A DNA stretch of 59,013 bases from an uncultured Actinomycetes bacterium (GTDB taxonomy: Bacteria; Actinomycetota; Actinomycetes; S36-B12). Each line of letters starts with the position of its first letter. Position 1 is the first letter of the stretch. The notes below the pieces were generated by a model. It was not told the DNA's origin. It did no database searches and worked only from the letters and a program-made list of their open reading frames with translations. The translations under genes were made by a program, and so were the position numbers. The DNA lies in the NCBI GenBank assembly GCA_903960135.1, contig CAJBZP010000128.1, positions 1 through 59,013 on the forward strand, given 5' to 3'. This document shows positions 27,325 through 37,505 of the stretch, piece after piece.

Positions 27325-29280
27325 CTAAACTTGCGCGCCGACCCGAAGCCCGTCAAGTACTGCCTCCTCGGCCGTACGCGGTGCGAGTGCATCGCCAATT
27401 AGCCGCACGTTTGCTCCGCGTTCGGCAAGTTCATGGAAGAGCGAGTCATTAGCGCGGTGGCCGGTGGCCAGCACAATTGCCGAGACCCCGGATATCTCCA
27501 CGACCTCTTCGGTCAGCGTGTGGCCTAAGTAGACCGTGTCACCGGAGAGACCGCGGATCCGCAGATCGTTACGGATACTGACCCTGTGCCTGATGGCGTC
27601 CGCCACCATTTCCTTGCGCACATATTGCTGCAGGGCATGCCCCGCAGCCCAACCCTGAACACAAAGGGTTACCTGGTGCCCACGCTCGGCGACCAAGGTG
27701 GCGACCCCGAGGCCGATCCAGTCACCGCGCCAGTCAGCGACGAGAATGGCGCCGGCAGGTAATTGGGCTCCACGCAGCACTTCCCAGGAATCGAAGATCG
27801 GGCTGTTCACCTCAGCATCGAGGGTTTCGATGAGCGGGGCATAGGGCAAGGCGCCCGTTGCGAGCACCACAAGATCGGCCTGATACTCGGTAATTGATTT
27901 GCAGTCCGCGGTTTTGTTGGTTGAAATTCGCGCGCCGGCGCGTGTTGCCTCGCCGACAAGATTTGGCACAATCCCACCGAACTCGGCGCGCCCCGGCAGC
28001 AGTTGCGCTAACTGGGTCTGACCACCAAGGGTTGCCGCGGTTTCCCAGAGTTCAACGTCATGTCCACGTGCGGCCGCAACTGCGGCGGCCTTCAGGCCGG
28101 CCGGTCCGCCACCGACAATGAGCACCCGCTTCACGTTGTCGGTCATCGGTAAATTTCCGAACTCGCGCTCGCGGCCACTCTCAGGATATTGAATACAGGA
28201 GATGGGTACGCCTAGGTGGAAGTGCCCGATACAGGCCTGATTACAGCCAATGCACAGCCGGATAGTTTCGGTTTCGCCGTCATGGGCTTTATTGGGCAGT
28301 AGTGGATCGCAGATGAGCGCACGGGTCATCGCTACCGCATCTGCCTTGCCGGAGGAGATGATGCGCTCGGCTTCAGCCGGGGTGTTTACCCGACCGGTAA
28401 GGAAGACGGGTACATCAACGGCGGCGCGTAGTTGCGAGGATAGGTCCGCGAGATAGCCGGGTGGGTAGTTCATGGGCGGCACAATGTGCACGCTGCCCGA
28501 ATAAGTCGCGCTGCTGCCAGCGGTCACCGAGAGGTAATCCACGTGATTGGCAAGGTACTGGCAGGCCTGCATTGACTCAGGCGGCGTCAGGCCGTCCTGA
28601 TCTCGCTCGCCCAGGCTGATCCGAAGGCCGACGACGAATCCATCGGGGGTTGCTGCGCGCACGGCGTCAACTACCTCGTGCGTGAAGCGCATGCGATTCT
28701 CGAACGAGCCGCCGTAAATGTCATCACGAATATTGGTACGGGGGTTGATGAATTGCGAAGGCAGGTATCCATGACTGGCAACGATCTCAACCCCGTCGAT
28801 ACCAGCTGTTGCCATTCGCGCCGCGGTCAGGCCAAAGCCGTGCACGATTTCCTCGATCAAGGGGATGTGCAACGCCCGCGGCATCACGTGGAATCTCTCA
28901 TTGGGTATGGCCGATGGCGCCCAGGCGACTGCGAGAAGCCCGTCGGGAGTGGTCATCACCTCGCGCCCACCATGAAATAGCTGTGCGAAAACATGGCAGT
29001 CATGTGCATGAATTGCTTCCGCGATTTTGCGGTACCCGGGGATCACTTCATCGCTGGTAGCCATTAACTCGCTGTCCGTGTACTCAGCAGTCTCGTGCAC
29101 CCCGGAGACCTGAAGCACGATGTGACCGACCCCGCCGGCCGCGCGAGCGCTTTGATAGGCGATCAATTGATCGCCAACTCGACCCCGTTCGGCCATCACG
29201 GTGTCATGGCCTGAAGAAAATATCCGGTTCTTGAGGGTGATGGAACCTAGACTCAGTGGGCTAAATAGGCTCGGAAACAC
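27325..29280 (-). CDS. Old Yellow Enzyme/trimethylamine dehydrogenase-type flavoprotein
   Basis: A 651-residue multidomain oxidoreductase. The N-terminal 360 residues form an FMN barrel (PLSLGSITLKNRIFSSGHDT, FAQLFHGGRE, RMRFTHEVVDAVR). A [4Fe-4S] cluster site follows (CIGCNQACIGHF plus a later Cys, the CX2CX3CX11C pattern). The C-terminal half binds NAD(P) or ADP and FAD (VLIVGGGPAGLKAAA). This is the design of 2,4-dienoyl-CoA reductase, trimethylamine dehydrogenase and N-methylproline or dimethylamine demethylases. In this island a demethylase role is more likely than dienoyl-CoA reduction, but both stand. The start is GTG. It ends next to the stop of the convergent aminotransferase. Confidence 0.75.
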   Translation of the reverse strand: MFPSLFSPLSLGSITLKNRIFSSGHDTVMAERGRVGDQLIAYQSARAAGGVGHIVLQVSGVHETAEYTDSELMATSDEVIPGYRKIAEAIHAHDCHVFAQLFHGGREVMTTPDGLLAVAWAPSAIPNERFHVMPRALHIPLIEEIVHGFGLTAARMATAGIDGVEIVASHGYLPSQFINPRTNIRDDIYGGSFENRMRFTHEVVDAVRAATPDGFVVGLRISLGERDQDGLTPPESMQACQYLANHVDYLSVTAGSSATYSGSVHIVPPMNYPPGYLADLSSQLRAAVDVPVFLTGRVNTPAEAERIISSGKADAVAMTRALICDPLLPNKAHDGETETIRLCIGCNQACIGHFHLGVPISCIQYPESGREREFGNLPMTDNVKRVLIVGGGPAGLKAAAVAAARGHDVELWETAATLGGQTQLAQLLPGRAEFGGIVPNLVGEATRAGARISTNKTADCKSITEYQADLVVLATGALPYAPLIETLDAEVNSPIFDSWEVLRGAQLPAGAILVADWRGDWIGLGVATLVAERGHQVTLCVQGWAAGHALQQYVRKEMVADAIRHRVSIRNDLRIRGLSGDTVYLGHTLTEEVVEISGVSAIVLATGHRANDSLFHELAERGANVRLIGDALAPRTAEEAVLDGLRVGAQV

Positions 29281-31135: not shown

Positions 31136-32980
31136 CTATGGCCTAGGAGCTAGGTCCTTGACCACGCAGGAGCCGGCCACTTGGGTGCAGGTGGTGGGCA
31201 GGGTCAAAGTACCCGCGTCATTGAACCCGACAGTTACTGATGCACCGGGTGCCAGCTGTCCGTTCCAGTCGGCGTTGGTCGCGGTCAACCGGCCGCCGGC
31301 AAGGGAGCCCTTGGCGTTCCACATCTCAAGGGCGCTACCTGTCCACGGCATGGTTACTGACCAAGTGGACACCGATCTAGTACCGGTGTTGGTGATCACC
31401 AGATCCATGGTGCGACCGGTACCCCAATCGGAGCTAACCGCCAAGGAGATAGCAAGTGCCGAGGTACCTACGGGCGCAGATGCTGTTGGTGTAGCCGTCG
31501 GTACCGGATTCGGTGGGACCGTCCCACCCATACCCGCGATGAACGCCTTAGCGAATGCCCACTGCCGTTCATTGATTTTCGTGCAGAGGTACAGGCCCTG
31601 GCTGGTGGAGGTGCACGGCGTATCGCGTGTCATCTCCCACCAGGCGAGCGTGCCAACGCCATTGTCCTTTACGAACTTAGCGACCTTAGCCGTATCAGCG
31701 ATGGTGAAGATTTCGCTGGCGATGTCATTTTGCCCGATCATTGGCGTGATCCCAACAAGTGATAGCAACGCCGAATTCGAAAGGTTCGAGTAGTTCGGGA
31801 TCGTCTTCAATGCGCTGGCGGTGTTCTGGGCCGCGGTAATGGCGTGCGTGCCCATGTCGGTCCACTCGGTGCCGTAGTCCATGGCCATTACGTTTACTGA
31901 CGCAAGGTTCACCCCTGCGGCGGCAAACTCTTTAACGGTGCGCAGGCCATTGTTATCGAGGCCGTACGGCATTACTGGAACTGTTAGGGAGACCTCAACA
32001 GTCTTTCCTTGGGCTGCATAGTCCTTTTGCAATTGCGCAACTACCTTTGCGCGCCGCTGGTTCGACACCGCGTTGGCAATATCAGCGCCCTCGATATCGA
32101 AGTCGATACGGTCAGAGCCGAATCGGTCGACCACCTTCTTATAGGCAGCTAGCAGGCTGGCCTCATTCGTGCAGGCATTGGCCAGCTCGGATCCGGAAGC
32201 TCCACCAAATGATGGGATCACCCGGCCACCTTGTCTCTGGAAGTCGCCGATGACATCGTAAAAGTCATTGGTACCGCCAACTGTGTAAGCGGAATACCCA
32301 CCCCAGGCGGGTGAGCACACCTTTCCGGCTTCCTGCACCACGAATGCGGCGGTCACGGCCTGAACGCCGGTAGCCGCGGACATGTTCACCAGGTTCGCCG
32401 TTGGCCACAATCCCATATCCACATACGGTGCGATCACGGTCTTGCCTGGCGTGCCGGTTATCGGTGCAACGGTTGGTGCAACGGTTGGTGCAACGGTTGG
32501 TGCAACGGTTGGTGCAACGGTTGGCGCAACGGTTGGTGCAACGGTGGGCGCAACGGTTGGTGCCACCGTTGGCGTCACGGTGGGAACCGGTGTGGGTGTA
32601 ACCGCGGCAGCTCGGGTGGCGCAGTAGCCGAATGATGTTGGAGTACCCGCGTTAACCGTCGGGTTCCAAGCCGCTCCCTTGATTACGACACTACCGCCGG
32701 CGTCGATGGATTTCTTGGCATTCCACAGGCTATTAATCGTGATATCGGTTGGCAGAGGTGTACTCCACGTTTGTGGCGTGGTTGCGGTGGTGGTAATTGC
32801 CACATCAGCGCAATATCCCGAACTCCAATCGGTATTTATCGTGGTGGTCGCGGTAACTCCATTCGTCACCACCGGATTCGTGGCAGCGTTCACCGACACG
32901 GCAGGGATTACTGCCAGCGCAGAAATTGTGGTTGCCGCGATGACAACAGCTGTTGCAGTTCGGCTTTTAACCGGGGACAT
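31136..32980 (-). CDS. Secreted GH18 chitinase-like protein with CBM2 domains
   Basis: A 614-residue extracellular enzyme. A signal peptide (to about residue 32) is followed by a CBM2-type cellulose/chitin-binding module (WSSGYCADV to FGYC, with paired Cys), a Pro/Thr/Val linker of nine PTVA repeats (residues about 137-172), a GH18 barrel (about 183-475) and a C-terminal CBM2 (SSDWGTGRTMDLVITNTG). The catalytic motif DxxDxDxE is present as DRIDFDIE at residues 290-297, with Glu297 the acid. It should hydrolyse chitin or related N-acetylglucosamine polymers outside the cell. No other chitin genes are in the window. Confidence 0.85.
   Translation of the reverse strand: MSPVKSRTATAVVIAATTISALAVIPAVSVNAATNPVVTNGVTATTTINTDWSSGYCADVAITTTATTPQTWSTPLPTDITINSLWNAKKSIDAGGSVVIKGAAWNPTVNAGTPTSFGYCATRAAAVTPTPVPTVTPTVAPTVAPTVAPTVAPTVAPTVAPTVAPTVAPTVAPITGTPGKTVIAPYVDMGLWPTANLVNMSAATGVQAVTAAFVVQEAGKVCSPAWGGYSAYTVGGTNDFYDVIGDFQRQGGRVIPSFGGASGSELANACTNEASLLAAYKKVVDRFGSDRIDFDIEGADIANAVSNQRRAKVVAQLQKDYAAQGKTVEVSLTVPVMPYGLDNNGLRTVKEFAAAGVNLASVNVMAMDYGTEWTDMGTHAITAAQNTASALKTIPNYSNLSNSALLSLVGITPMIGQNDIASEIFTIADTAKVAKFVKDNGVGTLAWWEMTRDTPCTSTSQGLYLCTKINERQWAFAKAFIAGMGGTVPPNPVPTATPTASAPVGTSALAISLAVSSDWGTGRTMDLVITNTGTRSVSTWSVTMPWTGSALEMWNAKGSLAGGRLTATNADWNGQLAPGASVTVGFNDAGTLTLPTTCTQVAGSCVVKDLAPRP
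32463..32582. repeat. 12-base tandem repeat coding the PTVA linker
   Basis: About ten 12-base units, mostly GGTTGGTGCAAC on this strand, encode nine PTVA repeats plus one PTVT in the chitinase linker. The units are nearly identical at the distal end and drift toward the other end, a sign of recent slippage expansion. Confidence 0.85.
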
Positions 32981-35311: not shown

Positions 35312-35322
35312 ATTGCTTCCGT

Positions 35323-35340
35323 GATACCCCATGGGGTATC
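35323..35340. promoter_or_regulatory. Perfect CsoR/CstR-type operator
   Basis: GATACCCCATGGGGTATC is an 18-base perfect palindrome with the C- and G-tracts typical of DNA sites for the CsoR/RcnR/CstR family. It lies 40 bases before the start of a gene for exactly that family, so autoregulation of the repressor-CoADR operon is very likely. Confidence 0.75.
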
Positions 35341-35379
35341 CTGCGGAGACAGTATTAATCCGCGGATCCGGGAGGTCAA

Positions 35380-35679
35380 GTGGCTACAAAGAAGGCAGCA
35401 GCGCCAATAGCCCACGTGTTATCGGATCAAGAGCGCCTTGCGGAGATCATCAAGCGCCTGTCGCGGGCCCAGGGCCAACTTGGCGGCATCATCAAGATGC
35501 TTGAGACCGGCCGCAGTTGCGATGAGGTCATCACGCAGATTGCGGCGGTTGGCAAGGCCATCGATACCGCTGCTTTTACGCTGATTTCATCGAGCCTCAA
35601 GGAATGCATACAAGAGGATCGTTCCGATGCCGATGCGGTTTCGGCTCAACTTCAACGCCTCTTCCTGATATTGGCCTAA
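35380..35679 (+). CDS. CsoR-family repressor, CstR-like persulfide sensor
   Basis: A 99-residue all-helical DUF156 protein. Two cysteines, Cys47 (GRSCDEVITQ) and Cys76 (SLKECIQE), occupy the family's sensing positions. The copper-binding His four residues before the second Cys is Ser72 here, so a copper site is unlikely. A cysteine pair without this His is the pattern of CstR-type repressors that react with persulfides. The next gene encodes a CoA-disulfide reductase-rhodanese, which fits sulfur handling. The start is GTG with GGGAGG just upstream, and a perfect palindrome lies before it. Confidence 0.8.
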   Translation: MATKKAAAPIAHVLSDQERLAEIIKRLSRAQGQLGGIIKMLETGRSCDEVITQIAAVGKAIDTAAFTLISSSLKECIQEDRSDADAVSAQLQRLFLILA

Positions 35680-35689
35680 GGAGCACGAA

Positions 35690-37378
35690 GTGCAAAGGCG
35701 AGTAGTAATCGTGGGCGGGGTCGCGGGCGGGATGTCCGCGGCTACTCGATTGCGCCGACTAGATGCCACCGCATCCATTGTGGTTCTCGAGCGCAGTTCA
35801 TATGTCTCTTATGCCAATTGCGGGCTGCCCTACTTCGTTGGCGGTGTCATAGCCTCGCAAAGTGACCTTCTCCTACAGACTCCCGCCAGTTTGCATGCCA
35901 GGTTTGATCTAGATGTGCGGGTCATGAACGAGGTGCTAGGCATCGATCGTGCGGCCAAGACCGTGTTAGTTCGCGATCTGGAAGCCGAGCACGACTATGA
36001 ACTTTCCTATGATGAATTAATTCTTAGCCCGGGAGCTCAACCCGTGGTCCCGCCCATTCCTGGTATCGAGCGGGCATTGACTTTGCGCACAGTGGAGGAT
36101 GTCGAACGCATCGTCGCGGCCGTAAATTCCGCGCCCAAGAGCGCCGTCGTTATCGGCGGTGGATTTATTGGTGTCGAGACGGCCGAAAATCTGGCACATC
36201 GTCGCATCCCCACGACGATTGTTGAGGCAATGGCGCAAGTACTTGCCCCGCTGGACCCAGAGATGGCAATACCGGTTGCAAATGAAATTCGTCGACACGG
36301 TGTCGAGTTGCGTTTAGGAGTTTCGGTAGCTGCCATCCATGGTGCTGAAGTCGAATTGTCTGATGGCTCCAGGGTCCCTGCTGAGATGGTGATTTTGGCA
36401 ATTGGGGTGCGCCCGGACGTCACATTGGCTCGCGCTGCCGGCCTCGACATCGGTCCGCGTGGCGGGATTCAAGTTGATGACATGAATCGGACGAGTGACC
36501 ATTTCATCTATGCCGTAGGTGATGCCGCCGAGAAGAGTGATGCACTCGATGGCCAGTCAGCGCTGGTCCCATTGGCTAATATTGCAAACCGCCAAGGTCG
36601 CGTGGTCGCAGATCACATCATGGGCCGACCGGTGCGGCCGGTCACTACCATCGGCACGGCTATCGTCAAGGTCTTCGATCTGGCAATCGCGACGACCGGG
36701 TGGAACGAGAAACGACTTATTGCTGCTGGGTTGCCCTTCCAGATCATCCATACCCACCCGGGCTCGCACGCCGGCTACTACCCAGGTGCCAAGACAATGG
36801 CGCTCAAGTTGATTATCAGTCCCGTTGATGGGGCAATTCTCGGTGCGCAAGGGGTCGGACGCGAAGGCGTCGATAAGCGCATCGACGTCGTCGCCACTGC
36901 TATTCGAGCCGGGCTCACCGCTCCCGACCTCGCTGACCTTGAGCTGGCATACGCACCACCATTTGGATCAGCCAAGGATCCGGTCAACATGCTCGGCTAC
37001 ATCGCCGAGAACCTACTGTCTGGACTGACCGTGAATGCACAGTGGAGTGAGGTAGCAAAGCTCAGCGCACTCGGTTACCAGATCATTGATGTGCGATCGG
37101 CAAGTGAATTTAGTGCCGGCACGATCCCCGGAGCGATCAGCATTCCAGTTGATGAGATCCGCGCGAGGCTTGCTGAAATCACGGCCCCAAATGTGCTGAT
37201 CACCTGCCAAGTTGGCCACCGCGGCCATACCGCAACCATGTTCTTACGCGAGCAGGGAATAAACGCGGTGAACCTCGATGGCGGCTACCAGACTTGGCGG
37301 CATTCCCCAGCTTTTGTTCTGAGCAGCAAGTCAATGTCAATCCAGCCAACCATCGAAATGGAGCCCGTTCGTGTGTAG
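35690..37378 (+). CDS. CoA-disulfide reductase with C-terminal rhodanese domain
   Basis: A 562-residue flavoprotein. The FAD motif is VVIVGGVAGGMSAATRLRRL, and the single redox Cys44 is in SYANCGLPYF, as in CoA-disulfide and CoA-persulfide reductases. A second NAD(P)-binding motif (AVVIGGGFIGVETAEN) and the dimer domain follow. From about residue 465 is a rhodanese domain with active Cys506 (LITCQVGHRGHTA). It should reduce CoA disulfides or persulfides and handle sulfane sulfur. It is ten bases after the CstR-like gene. The end overlaps the start of a small Cys-rich gene. Confidence 0.85.
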   Translation: MQRRVVIVGGVAGGMSAATRLRRLDATASIVVLERSSYVSYANCGLPYFVGGVIASQSDLLLQTPASLHARFDLDVRVMNEVLGIDRAAKTVLVRDLEAEHDYELSYDELILSPGAQPVVPPIPGIERALTLRTVEDVERIVAAVNSAPKSAVVIGGGFIGVETAENLAHRRIPTTIVEAMAQVLAPLDPEMAIPVANEIRRHGVELRLGVSVAAIHGAEVELSDGSRVPAEMVILAIGVRPDVTLARAAGLDIGPRGGIQVDDMNRTSDHFIYAVGDAAEKSDALDGQSALVPLANIANRQGRVVADHIMGRPVRPVTTIGTAIVKVFDLAIATTGWNEKRLIAAGLPFQIIHTHPGSHAGYYPGAKTMALKLIISPVDGAILGAQGVGREGVDKRIDVVATAIRAGLTAPDLADLELAYAPPFGSAKDPVNMLGYIAENLLSGLTVNAQWSEVAKLSALGYQIIDVRSASEFSAGTIPGAISIPVDEIRARLAEITAPNVLITCQVGHRGHTATMFLREQGINAVNLDGGYQTWRHSPAFVLSSKSMSIQPTIEMEPVRV

Positions 37379-37505
37379 CCCCGCCACCTGTTCAACCTGC
37401 AAGAAGATCACCTACACCGGCTGCGGCGAGCATGTCGAGCAGGTGCTGGGGAGTTTCCCGGCAAGTGCCCGCTGTGATTGTCACATAGGAACTTCAGCGA
37501 GGTAG
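37371..37505 (+). CDS. Small Cys-rich protein (44 residues)
   Basis: A GTG-started frame of 44 codons overlaps the last eight bases of the reductase gene and is read in a different frame. The product (MCSPATCSTCKKITYTGCGE to ARCDCH) has six cysteines: Cys2, Cys7, Cys10, Cys18, Cys35 and Cys37. It resembles short actinobacterial proteins of the MCxxxTCxxCxKxTxxGCGxHV type found near sulfur genes. The CxxC and CDC patterns suggest metal or persulfide binding. No separate ribosome site is visible, so coupling to the reductase is likely. Confidence 0.6.
   Translation: MCSPATCSTCKKITYTGCGEHVEQVLGSFPASARCDCHIGTSAR

Follow-up and report, generated by a model that had tools for sequence, protein, structure and literature searches.

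A CsoR-family repressor gene lying directly behind a perfect palindrome raises the question of whether its product senses copper or sulfane sulfur. The gene (35380..35679, + strand, GTG start) lies in the window, meaning the whole 59,013-nucleotide stretch of DNA analysed here, which is contig C128 of a 2.32 Mb genome in 152 contigs (95.5% complete). Its 99-residue product, cstR-like and of the CsoR/DUF156 family, matched PF02583 (CsoR/RcnR, DUF156) with 74.3 bits against a cut-off of 22.8 and was the sole CsoR-family match found in the genome. The protein has two cysteines (Cys47 and Cys76) and one histidine (His12), and Ser72 occupies the position of the CsoR histidine. A preliminary description of this DNA had named Cys47, Cys76 and Ser72, and the three residues were found in the open reading frame as described. 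Two conserved cysteines without the histidine ligand are the arrangement of CstR-type proteins, whereas the Cys-His-Cys site of copper CsoR/RicR proteins is interrupted by the serine. The best solved-structure matches were 7mq1 and 7mq3, deposited as 'copper-sensing transcriptional repressor csoR', which we take to be the pneumococcal persulfide sensor CstR; in the alignment the 7mq1 chain has Asn at the histidine position where the host repressor has Ser.

The predicted operator, GATACCCCATGGGGTATC (35323..35340, without strand), is an exact 18-bp palindrome that encloses a 16-bp core ATACCCCATGGGGTAT (35324-35339) and ends 39 bases before the gene start, in agreement with the earlier placement of a perfect palindrome just upstream of the CsoR-family gene. 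A possible -10 element TATCCT (35337..35342, + strand) overlaps the right half of the operator, and a candidate -35 element TTGCTT (35313-35318) would stand at an 18-bp spacer from it. Of 55 oriented sites, counted with the window site left out, 29 had TATNNT starting at the operator's gene-side TAT and 12 had it on the far side. Measured against the window only, the palindrome is no more than mildly unusual. The sequence GATACCCCATGGGGTATC with up to 3 mismatches matched once against 0.04 expected for that sequence, while 18-bp perfect palindromes as a class occurred twice (29158 and 35323), where 50 first-order Markov simulations gave 0.32 on average, and a proof of significance from the window by itself was set aside as weak. 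The other 18-bp palindrome (29158-29175) is within the minus-strand frame of an old-yellow-enzyme-like flavoprotein (label by eye).

Behind the operator the repressor gene is followed, 10 bp past its stop codon, by a gene (35690..37378, + strand) that had been described as a CoADR-rhodanese and is by its domain matches (PF07992, PF02852 and PF00581) a fusion of this kind, namely a predicted CoA-disulfide/CoA-persulfide reductase with a C-terminal rhodanese domain. Its sole cysteines, C44 and C506, fall one in each expected active site, as the architecture requires. The best solved match was 3icr (coenzyme A-disulfide reductase) and 8a56 ('Coenzyme A-persulfide reductase') was also matched (1.9e-152), while the score was under the NCBIfam equivalog cut-off for CoA-disulfide reductase (447.9 vs 578.8). 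The third gene of the operon (37371..37505, + strand) overlaps the end of the second and encodes a small Cys-rich protein of 44 residues that is absent from the preliminary description; it has no operator of its own, and a second genomic copy on contig C53 has one.

The core ATACCCCNNGGGGTAT was located at six sites in the host genome, four exact and two with one mismatch, compared with none at 0-1 mismatch for a reversed-pattern control. A search for the palindrome elsewhere, which the preliminary description had proposed as a check, thus returned five further places. At two mismatches the pattern gave nine sites and the control three, and the three two-mismatch sites (C20, C87 and C102) were regarded as background since the control also gives three; those on C20 and C102 are inside long open reading frames. 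On contig C95 the operator precedes a thioredoxin-like ORF, a rhodanese, a metallo-beta-lactamase/rhodanese protein that is of the PDO or CstB type by architecture (best solved match 3tp9) and a TauE exporter. On C106 it precedes a type III SQR (607.6 bits, cut-off 525), DsrC/TusE and DsrE2 and extends into the likely SQR start codon. The remaining sites are at a lipoprotein rhodanese with a YbaK-type gene (by eye) across the operator (C68), at the second small Cys-rich gene with an aldehyde dehydrogenase (by eye) across it (C53), and at a membrane protein with a GCPVCNK segment followed by an MFS-like transporter (by eye) on C122. A GC-tract palindrome at genes of sulfide and persulfide enzymes is what a CstR-type regulator would be expected to have, and regulation of these genes is predicted from the operator.

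Several features of these loci were noted in passing. The thioredoxin-like ORF of C95 (L009:3987-4268) is without the CGPC segment, which may stem from a deletion in frame or from faulty assembly, and the seven other thioredoxin-like ORFs at site loci have CGPC or CAPC. The best NCBIfam model for the C106 SQR was the selenoprotein subtype of type III SQR; selenocysteine was rejected for the host protein, which is read through with Cys and has no internal stop. Another genome of the same genus (G003, L126:4022-4614) has kept the operator, DsrC and DsrE2, but its SQR gene behind that operator is disrupted by a stop and by missing segments. The membrane protein of C122 had no Pfam match and a weak similarity to MerT (E 0.0014), below the cut-off.

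In an order-level sample of 59 genomes of the order of the host, the host genome included (numbered with G), the 16-bp core at up to one mismatch occurred at 199 sites in 48 genomes and the reversed control at 1. Among the matches listed, 74 sites were read, five in the host (the window site apart) and 69 in other genomes, and an ORF similar to a host site-linked protein was within 250 bp at 63 of the 74 and at 58 of the 69. The host sites are circular in this count and the other 69 are not, because the query proteins came from the host genome. The eleven leftover sites were at two SQR-like flavoproteins (by eye; Pfam Pyr_redox_2), one TusA, four methyltransferases of one type, two DUF2202 proteins, one amino-acid permease and one TetR-type regulator beside a secreted protein; nine of the loci were scanned with Pfam at one ORF each and two were assigned by eye. 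Small Cys-rich genes were present at 20 of the 74 sites. A chance palindrome in a coincidental gene neighbourhood, for which the two palindromes in the window against 0.32 expected might be cited, is given a negligible probability, as it is opposed by the ratio of 199 sites to one in the 59 genomes and by the consistent placement of the sites before related genes.

Four genomes, belonging to two genera, had the SAM-methyltransferase of one type behind a 16-bp operator (L100, L106, L114 and L122, with L100 and L114 scanned); the enzyme might methylate thiols or sulfide. The GCPVCNK membrane protein was at the operator or in its cluster at seven loci (L008:1730-2206, L080, L087, L112, L119, L132 and L137), the two members scanned were without a Pfam match, and the protein may transport sulfur or thiols.

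The histidine position was read in each of the 67 CsoR-family matches from the 59 genomes, and 20 had the Cys-His-Cys site while 47 were without the histidine. Both cysteines were accompanied by Gly in 34 of the latter, by Ser in nine and by Ala and Glu in one each; two had Gly together with His for the second Cys. A tree separated the 47 non-His proteins and 7mq1 from the 20 His-type proteins, 4m1p ('CsoR'), 5fmn ('INRS') and 6ahx at a branch supported by 100/99. The repressor therefore groups with CstR and apart from copper CsoR as judged against one CstR reference, 7mq1, presumably the pneumococcal CstR, whose exact place is unsure, since it entered the tree as a 72-residue stretch and sits on a very long branch (4.09). 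With the two protein groups on two sides of the tree, they are therefore old paralogues.

The paralogues differed in the length of the operator before their genes. The 16-bp form (4C-2-4G) was upstream of 33 of the 47 non-His genes and of none of the 20 His-type genes at up to two mismatches, while the 17-bp form (5C-2-4G or its mirror) was upstream of 0/47 and 19/20, respectively; at up to one mismatch the counts were 24/47 and 0/20 for the shorter form and 0/47 and 15/20 for the longer. Fisher p-values for this comparison (e.g. 8e-16) are inflated, since each protein group is a clade of its own, and 14 of the 47 non-His genes had no upstream 16-bp site even at two mismatches. Genome-wide at up to one mismatch, every one of the 19 genomes with a His-type gene had the 17-bp form, as did one of the 40 others, and the three genomes with a His-type gene only had no 16-bp site. 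The 16-bp operator is nonetheless carried by seven of the 14 genomes in which no non-His gene was detected (G001, G005, G023, G030, G033, G043 and G054), perhaps owing to incomplete assemblies. Four of the 45 genomes with a non-His gene had no 16-bp site at up to one mismatch (G016, G042, G046 and G058), and in G046 and G058 a His replaces the second Cys of the non-His protein.

When the sample was widened to 296 genomes of the phylum, exact 17-bp operators were present in 71 and exact 16-bp operators in 39. Loci among the matches listed were scored by motif up to 1.5 kb on each side; 30 loci of the 17-bp form comprised 14 with a copper marker, one with a rhodanese, five with a CsoR of ambiguous site and ten with none of these, and 29 loci of the 16-bp form comprised 11 with a non-His CsoR or sulfur enzyme, two with a copper marker, one with an ambiguous CsoR and 15 with none. 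Exceptions outside the order included a 16-bp site before a His-type CsoR (L388), a 16-bp site with a copper marker (L387) and L344, so that the length rule, strong within the order, is not absolute outside it. In the phylum sample the genome G137 had 22 exact 16-bp sites, the next highest among the matches listed having nine.

The published operators of ScCsoR from Streptomyces coelicolor, ATACCn6GGTAT (PMC7533328), and of the copper CsoR of S. lividans, with the consensus ATATACCCCTNAGGGGTATAT or TAC-X9-GTA (PMC3902906), correspond to the 16-bp and 17-bp forms, respectively. Sensitivity to operator length has a precedent in the family, since in Thermus thermophilus the repeat spacing matters for high-affinity binding by TTHA1953 and this protein and the copper CsoR TTHA1719 recognise different DNA (PMC10318464). 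Operator length is not used as a discriminator in the available portions of PMC7533328 or PMC3902906, and the 16/17-bp rule was not stated in the titles and abstracts searched, many journals lying outside that search; a check of PMC4938975 found no sulfur terms in it. Taken together, the regulator is of a known kind, CstR-type repressors having already been described, also in actinobacteria, and the newer points are the dispersed regulon, the difference of one base pair between operators and the small Cys-rich family as a frequent regulon member. The clean partition of operator lengths between paralogues in the order and the operator-tied Cys-rich family may be unexpected to a specialist. The rule could help in re-assigning 'copper-sensing' and 'metal-sensitive' annotations in related Actinomycetota, with the exceptions known.

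These data bear on the reading of the host protein as a copper-responsive CsoR/RicR-like repressor that lost one ligand and still senses Cu(I) with its two cysteines, in which case the small Cys-rich proteins would be copper-binding and metallothionein-like. The family is the same, the operator is GC-rich and similar to that of the S. lividans protein (PMC3902906), and copper would otherwise be without a CsoR sensor in a genome with one CsoR-family match. Since the 16-bp operator is close to that of copper CsoR, the motif alone is no proof of the ligand. The histidine is however missing from 47 of 47 proteins on the repressor's side of the tree, the 17-bp copper-type operator is absent from the host genome at up to one mismatch, and no copper family was seen in the nine of eleven otherwise unassigned site-linked loci that were scanned at one ORF each. 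A CopA-like ATPase, the single HMA-domain protein located in the host genome, is on a contig (C50) carrying neither the 16-bp site at up to two mismatches nor the 17-bp site at up to one, and the linkage of the operator to copA or copZ that marks copper CsoR/RicR systems was absent from the host genome. Copper sensing is accordingly considered highly improbable, and the proposal in the preliminary description of a CstR-type rather than a copper sensor gained support from the best solved-structure matches, from the tree, from the operator at sulfur genes and from the operator-free ATPase. The repressor very probably senses reactive sulfur and not copper.

A general thiol-redox or electrophile sensor responding to disulfide, HNO, hypochlorite or aldehyde, and not specific to persulfide, would also have two reactive cysteines able to form disulfides. 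With HNO, CstR from Staphylococcus aureus forms a C31-C60' disulfide (PMC5480029), and TTHA1953 answers to disulfide formation and not to NaHS (PMC10318464). Thioredoxins are among the site-linked genes, and an aldehyde dehydrogenase is across the operator from a small Cys-rich gene in the host and two genomes of the same genus (L006, L123 and L127). The site-linked genes are nevertheless mainly those of sulfide and persulfide metabolism (SQR, PDO-type, CoADR-Rhd, rhodaneses and TauE), and the reading of the sites, although not aimed at such enzymes, turned up neither a peroxidase nor a catalase, which makes a sensor of this general type unlikely.

The operator and its recurrence, the genes beside it, the cysteine-only site and the clade were each directly observed, and their best explanation is a CstR-type persulfide-responsive repressor that probably shuts down the operon it belongs to and about five further promoters, a reading to which we assign a probability of about 0.87 on sequence evidence. 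In the mechanism that we infer, covering DNA binding, reaction with persulfide, derepression, regulation and enzyme activities, the reduced repressor would bind the 16-bp palindrome ATACCCCNNGGGGTAT, overlapping the -10 element in many promoters, and silence these genes. Upon a rise in sulfane sulfur, as hydropolysulfides or CoA or mycothiol persulfide, Cys47 would become persulfidated, Cys76 would bridge to it or stabilise it, and the repressor would leave the DNA. SQR would then oxidise sulfide to persulfide, DsrC/DsrE, rhodaneses and perhaps the small Cys-rich proteins would relay the sulfur, CoADR-Rhd would reduce CoA persulfide and restore CoA, and the PDO-type enzyme would oxidise persulfide to sulfite for export by TauE. 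Repression would return as persulfide falls. A poorly known actinobacterial lineage would thereby gain a concrete and testable persulfide stress regulon under the sole CsoR-family protein found.

Comparable systems have been described. ScCsoR is released from DNA by polysulfide and requires both cysteines (PMC7533328). The host repressor resembles it in being actinobacterial, in its two cysteines (37 and 66 in ScCsoR), in the 16-bp length of the operator and in the site at its own promoter, and the PDO, TauE and rhodanese genes that ScCsoR controls are of types also found at the host sites (PMC7533328). Unlike ScCsoR, which acts on three promoters in one cluster, the host has six scattered sites, which additionally include SQR-DsrC-DsrE, CoADR-Rhd, the lipoprotein rhodanese and small Cys-rich proteins (PMC7533328). 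The crosslink between Cys47 and Cys76, which had been proposed as a readout of persulfide sensing, may be the wrong choice because in ScCsoR Cys37 becomes persulfidated and no polysulfide bridge forms (PMC7533328). The CstR proteins of S. aureus and Enterococcus faecalis are likewise two-Cys CsoR paralogues (PMC5480029, PMC9405070). E. faecalis CstR controls two rhodaneses and coaP, a CoA persulfide reductase with the same architecture as the host CoADR-rhodanese (PMC9405070), while S. aureus CstR is believed to act directly on just one operon (PMC5480029), unlike the dispersed host regulon. TTHA1953 (C39, C68) is a two-Cys regulator of the family with a dispersed sulfur regulon and differs in its operator TACNNTACNNNNGTANNGTA, its Sox targets and the lack of an NaHS response in vitro (PMC10318464). 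S. lividans CsoR shares the protein family and the TAC...GTA operator ends with C/G tracts, and differs in being a copper member that controls copZA and in an operator one base pair longer (PMC3902906).

The small Cys-rich proteins formed a family with the pattern M-C-x4-C-x2-C-x7-C-G-x-H-x13-C and lengths of 37-63 residues that occurred in 50 of the 59 order-level genomes. In an alignment of 70 members M1, C2, C7, C10, G17, C18, G19, H21 and C35 are shared, the conservation of C2, C7, C10, C18 and H21 being partly by construction because the collection patterns demand these positions. Sixty genes (31 + 29) from 77 rows were examined for upstream operators, and at up to one mismatch within 250 bp an operator was found at 24 of 31 and 19 of 29, with none for the reversed pattern or the downstream stretch. 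Three rows (L310, L311 and L312) had no motif match, and the remaining rows, many of them in site loci already read, were not recounted; L155, which has 6 bases upstream only, was counted as a miss. In 79 named loci, mostly labelled Actinomycetota, the operator was upstream of 54 of 91 genes (reversed 0, downstream 2); one further of the 80 named loci, L194, had no motif match. Named loci and G genomes overlap (e.g. L168 resembles a contig of G008 and L169 one of G002) and are thus not independent sets. Two deltaproteobacterial MAGs (L203 and L211) had no operator at the small Cys-rich gene, with only 78 bases searchable in L211. The closest named matches of the window's gene were in actinobacterial MAGs, one of them acI-Baikal, and Candidatus Nanopelagicales MAGs were farther.

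Pfam gave nothing better than E = 0.013 for 21 members of the family, NCBIfam no match at E 0.1 for two members, and a PDB sequence profile match at E = 0.097 was taken as chance. An AlphaFold2 model from 70 sequences had two short strands and two helices (mean pLDDT 77.8, pTM 0.47), and Foldseek against the PDB returned nothing better than E = 2.2. C7/C10 and C18/H21 could form a zinc knuckle that leaves C2, C35 and C37 free, an idea that is no more than suggestive in view of the moderate model confidence and the absence of a PDB match. The family was not mentioned in the titles and abstracts searched, a search that many journals fall outside. A wider reading, possible rather than probable, is that these proteins are an unnamed core component of persulfide defence in Actinomycetota, acting as a zinc-knuckle-like fold whose additional free cysteines would accept or pass on sulfane sulfur, in combination with the separation of the repressors by 16-bp and 17-bp operators. 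As an orphan family tied to sulfane sulfur genes, its function is directly testable. Elsewhere in the window, a secreted glycoside-hydrolase-like protein (31136-32980, label by eye) has a long PTVAPTVA linker repeat.
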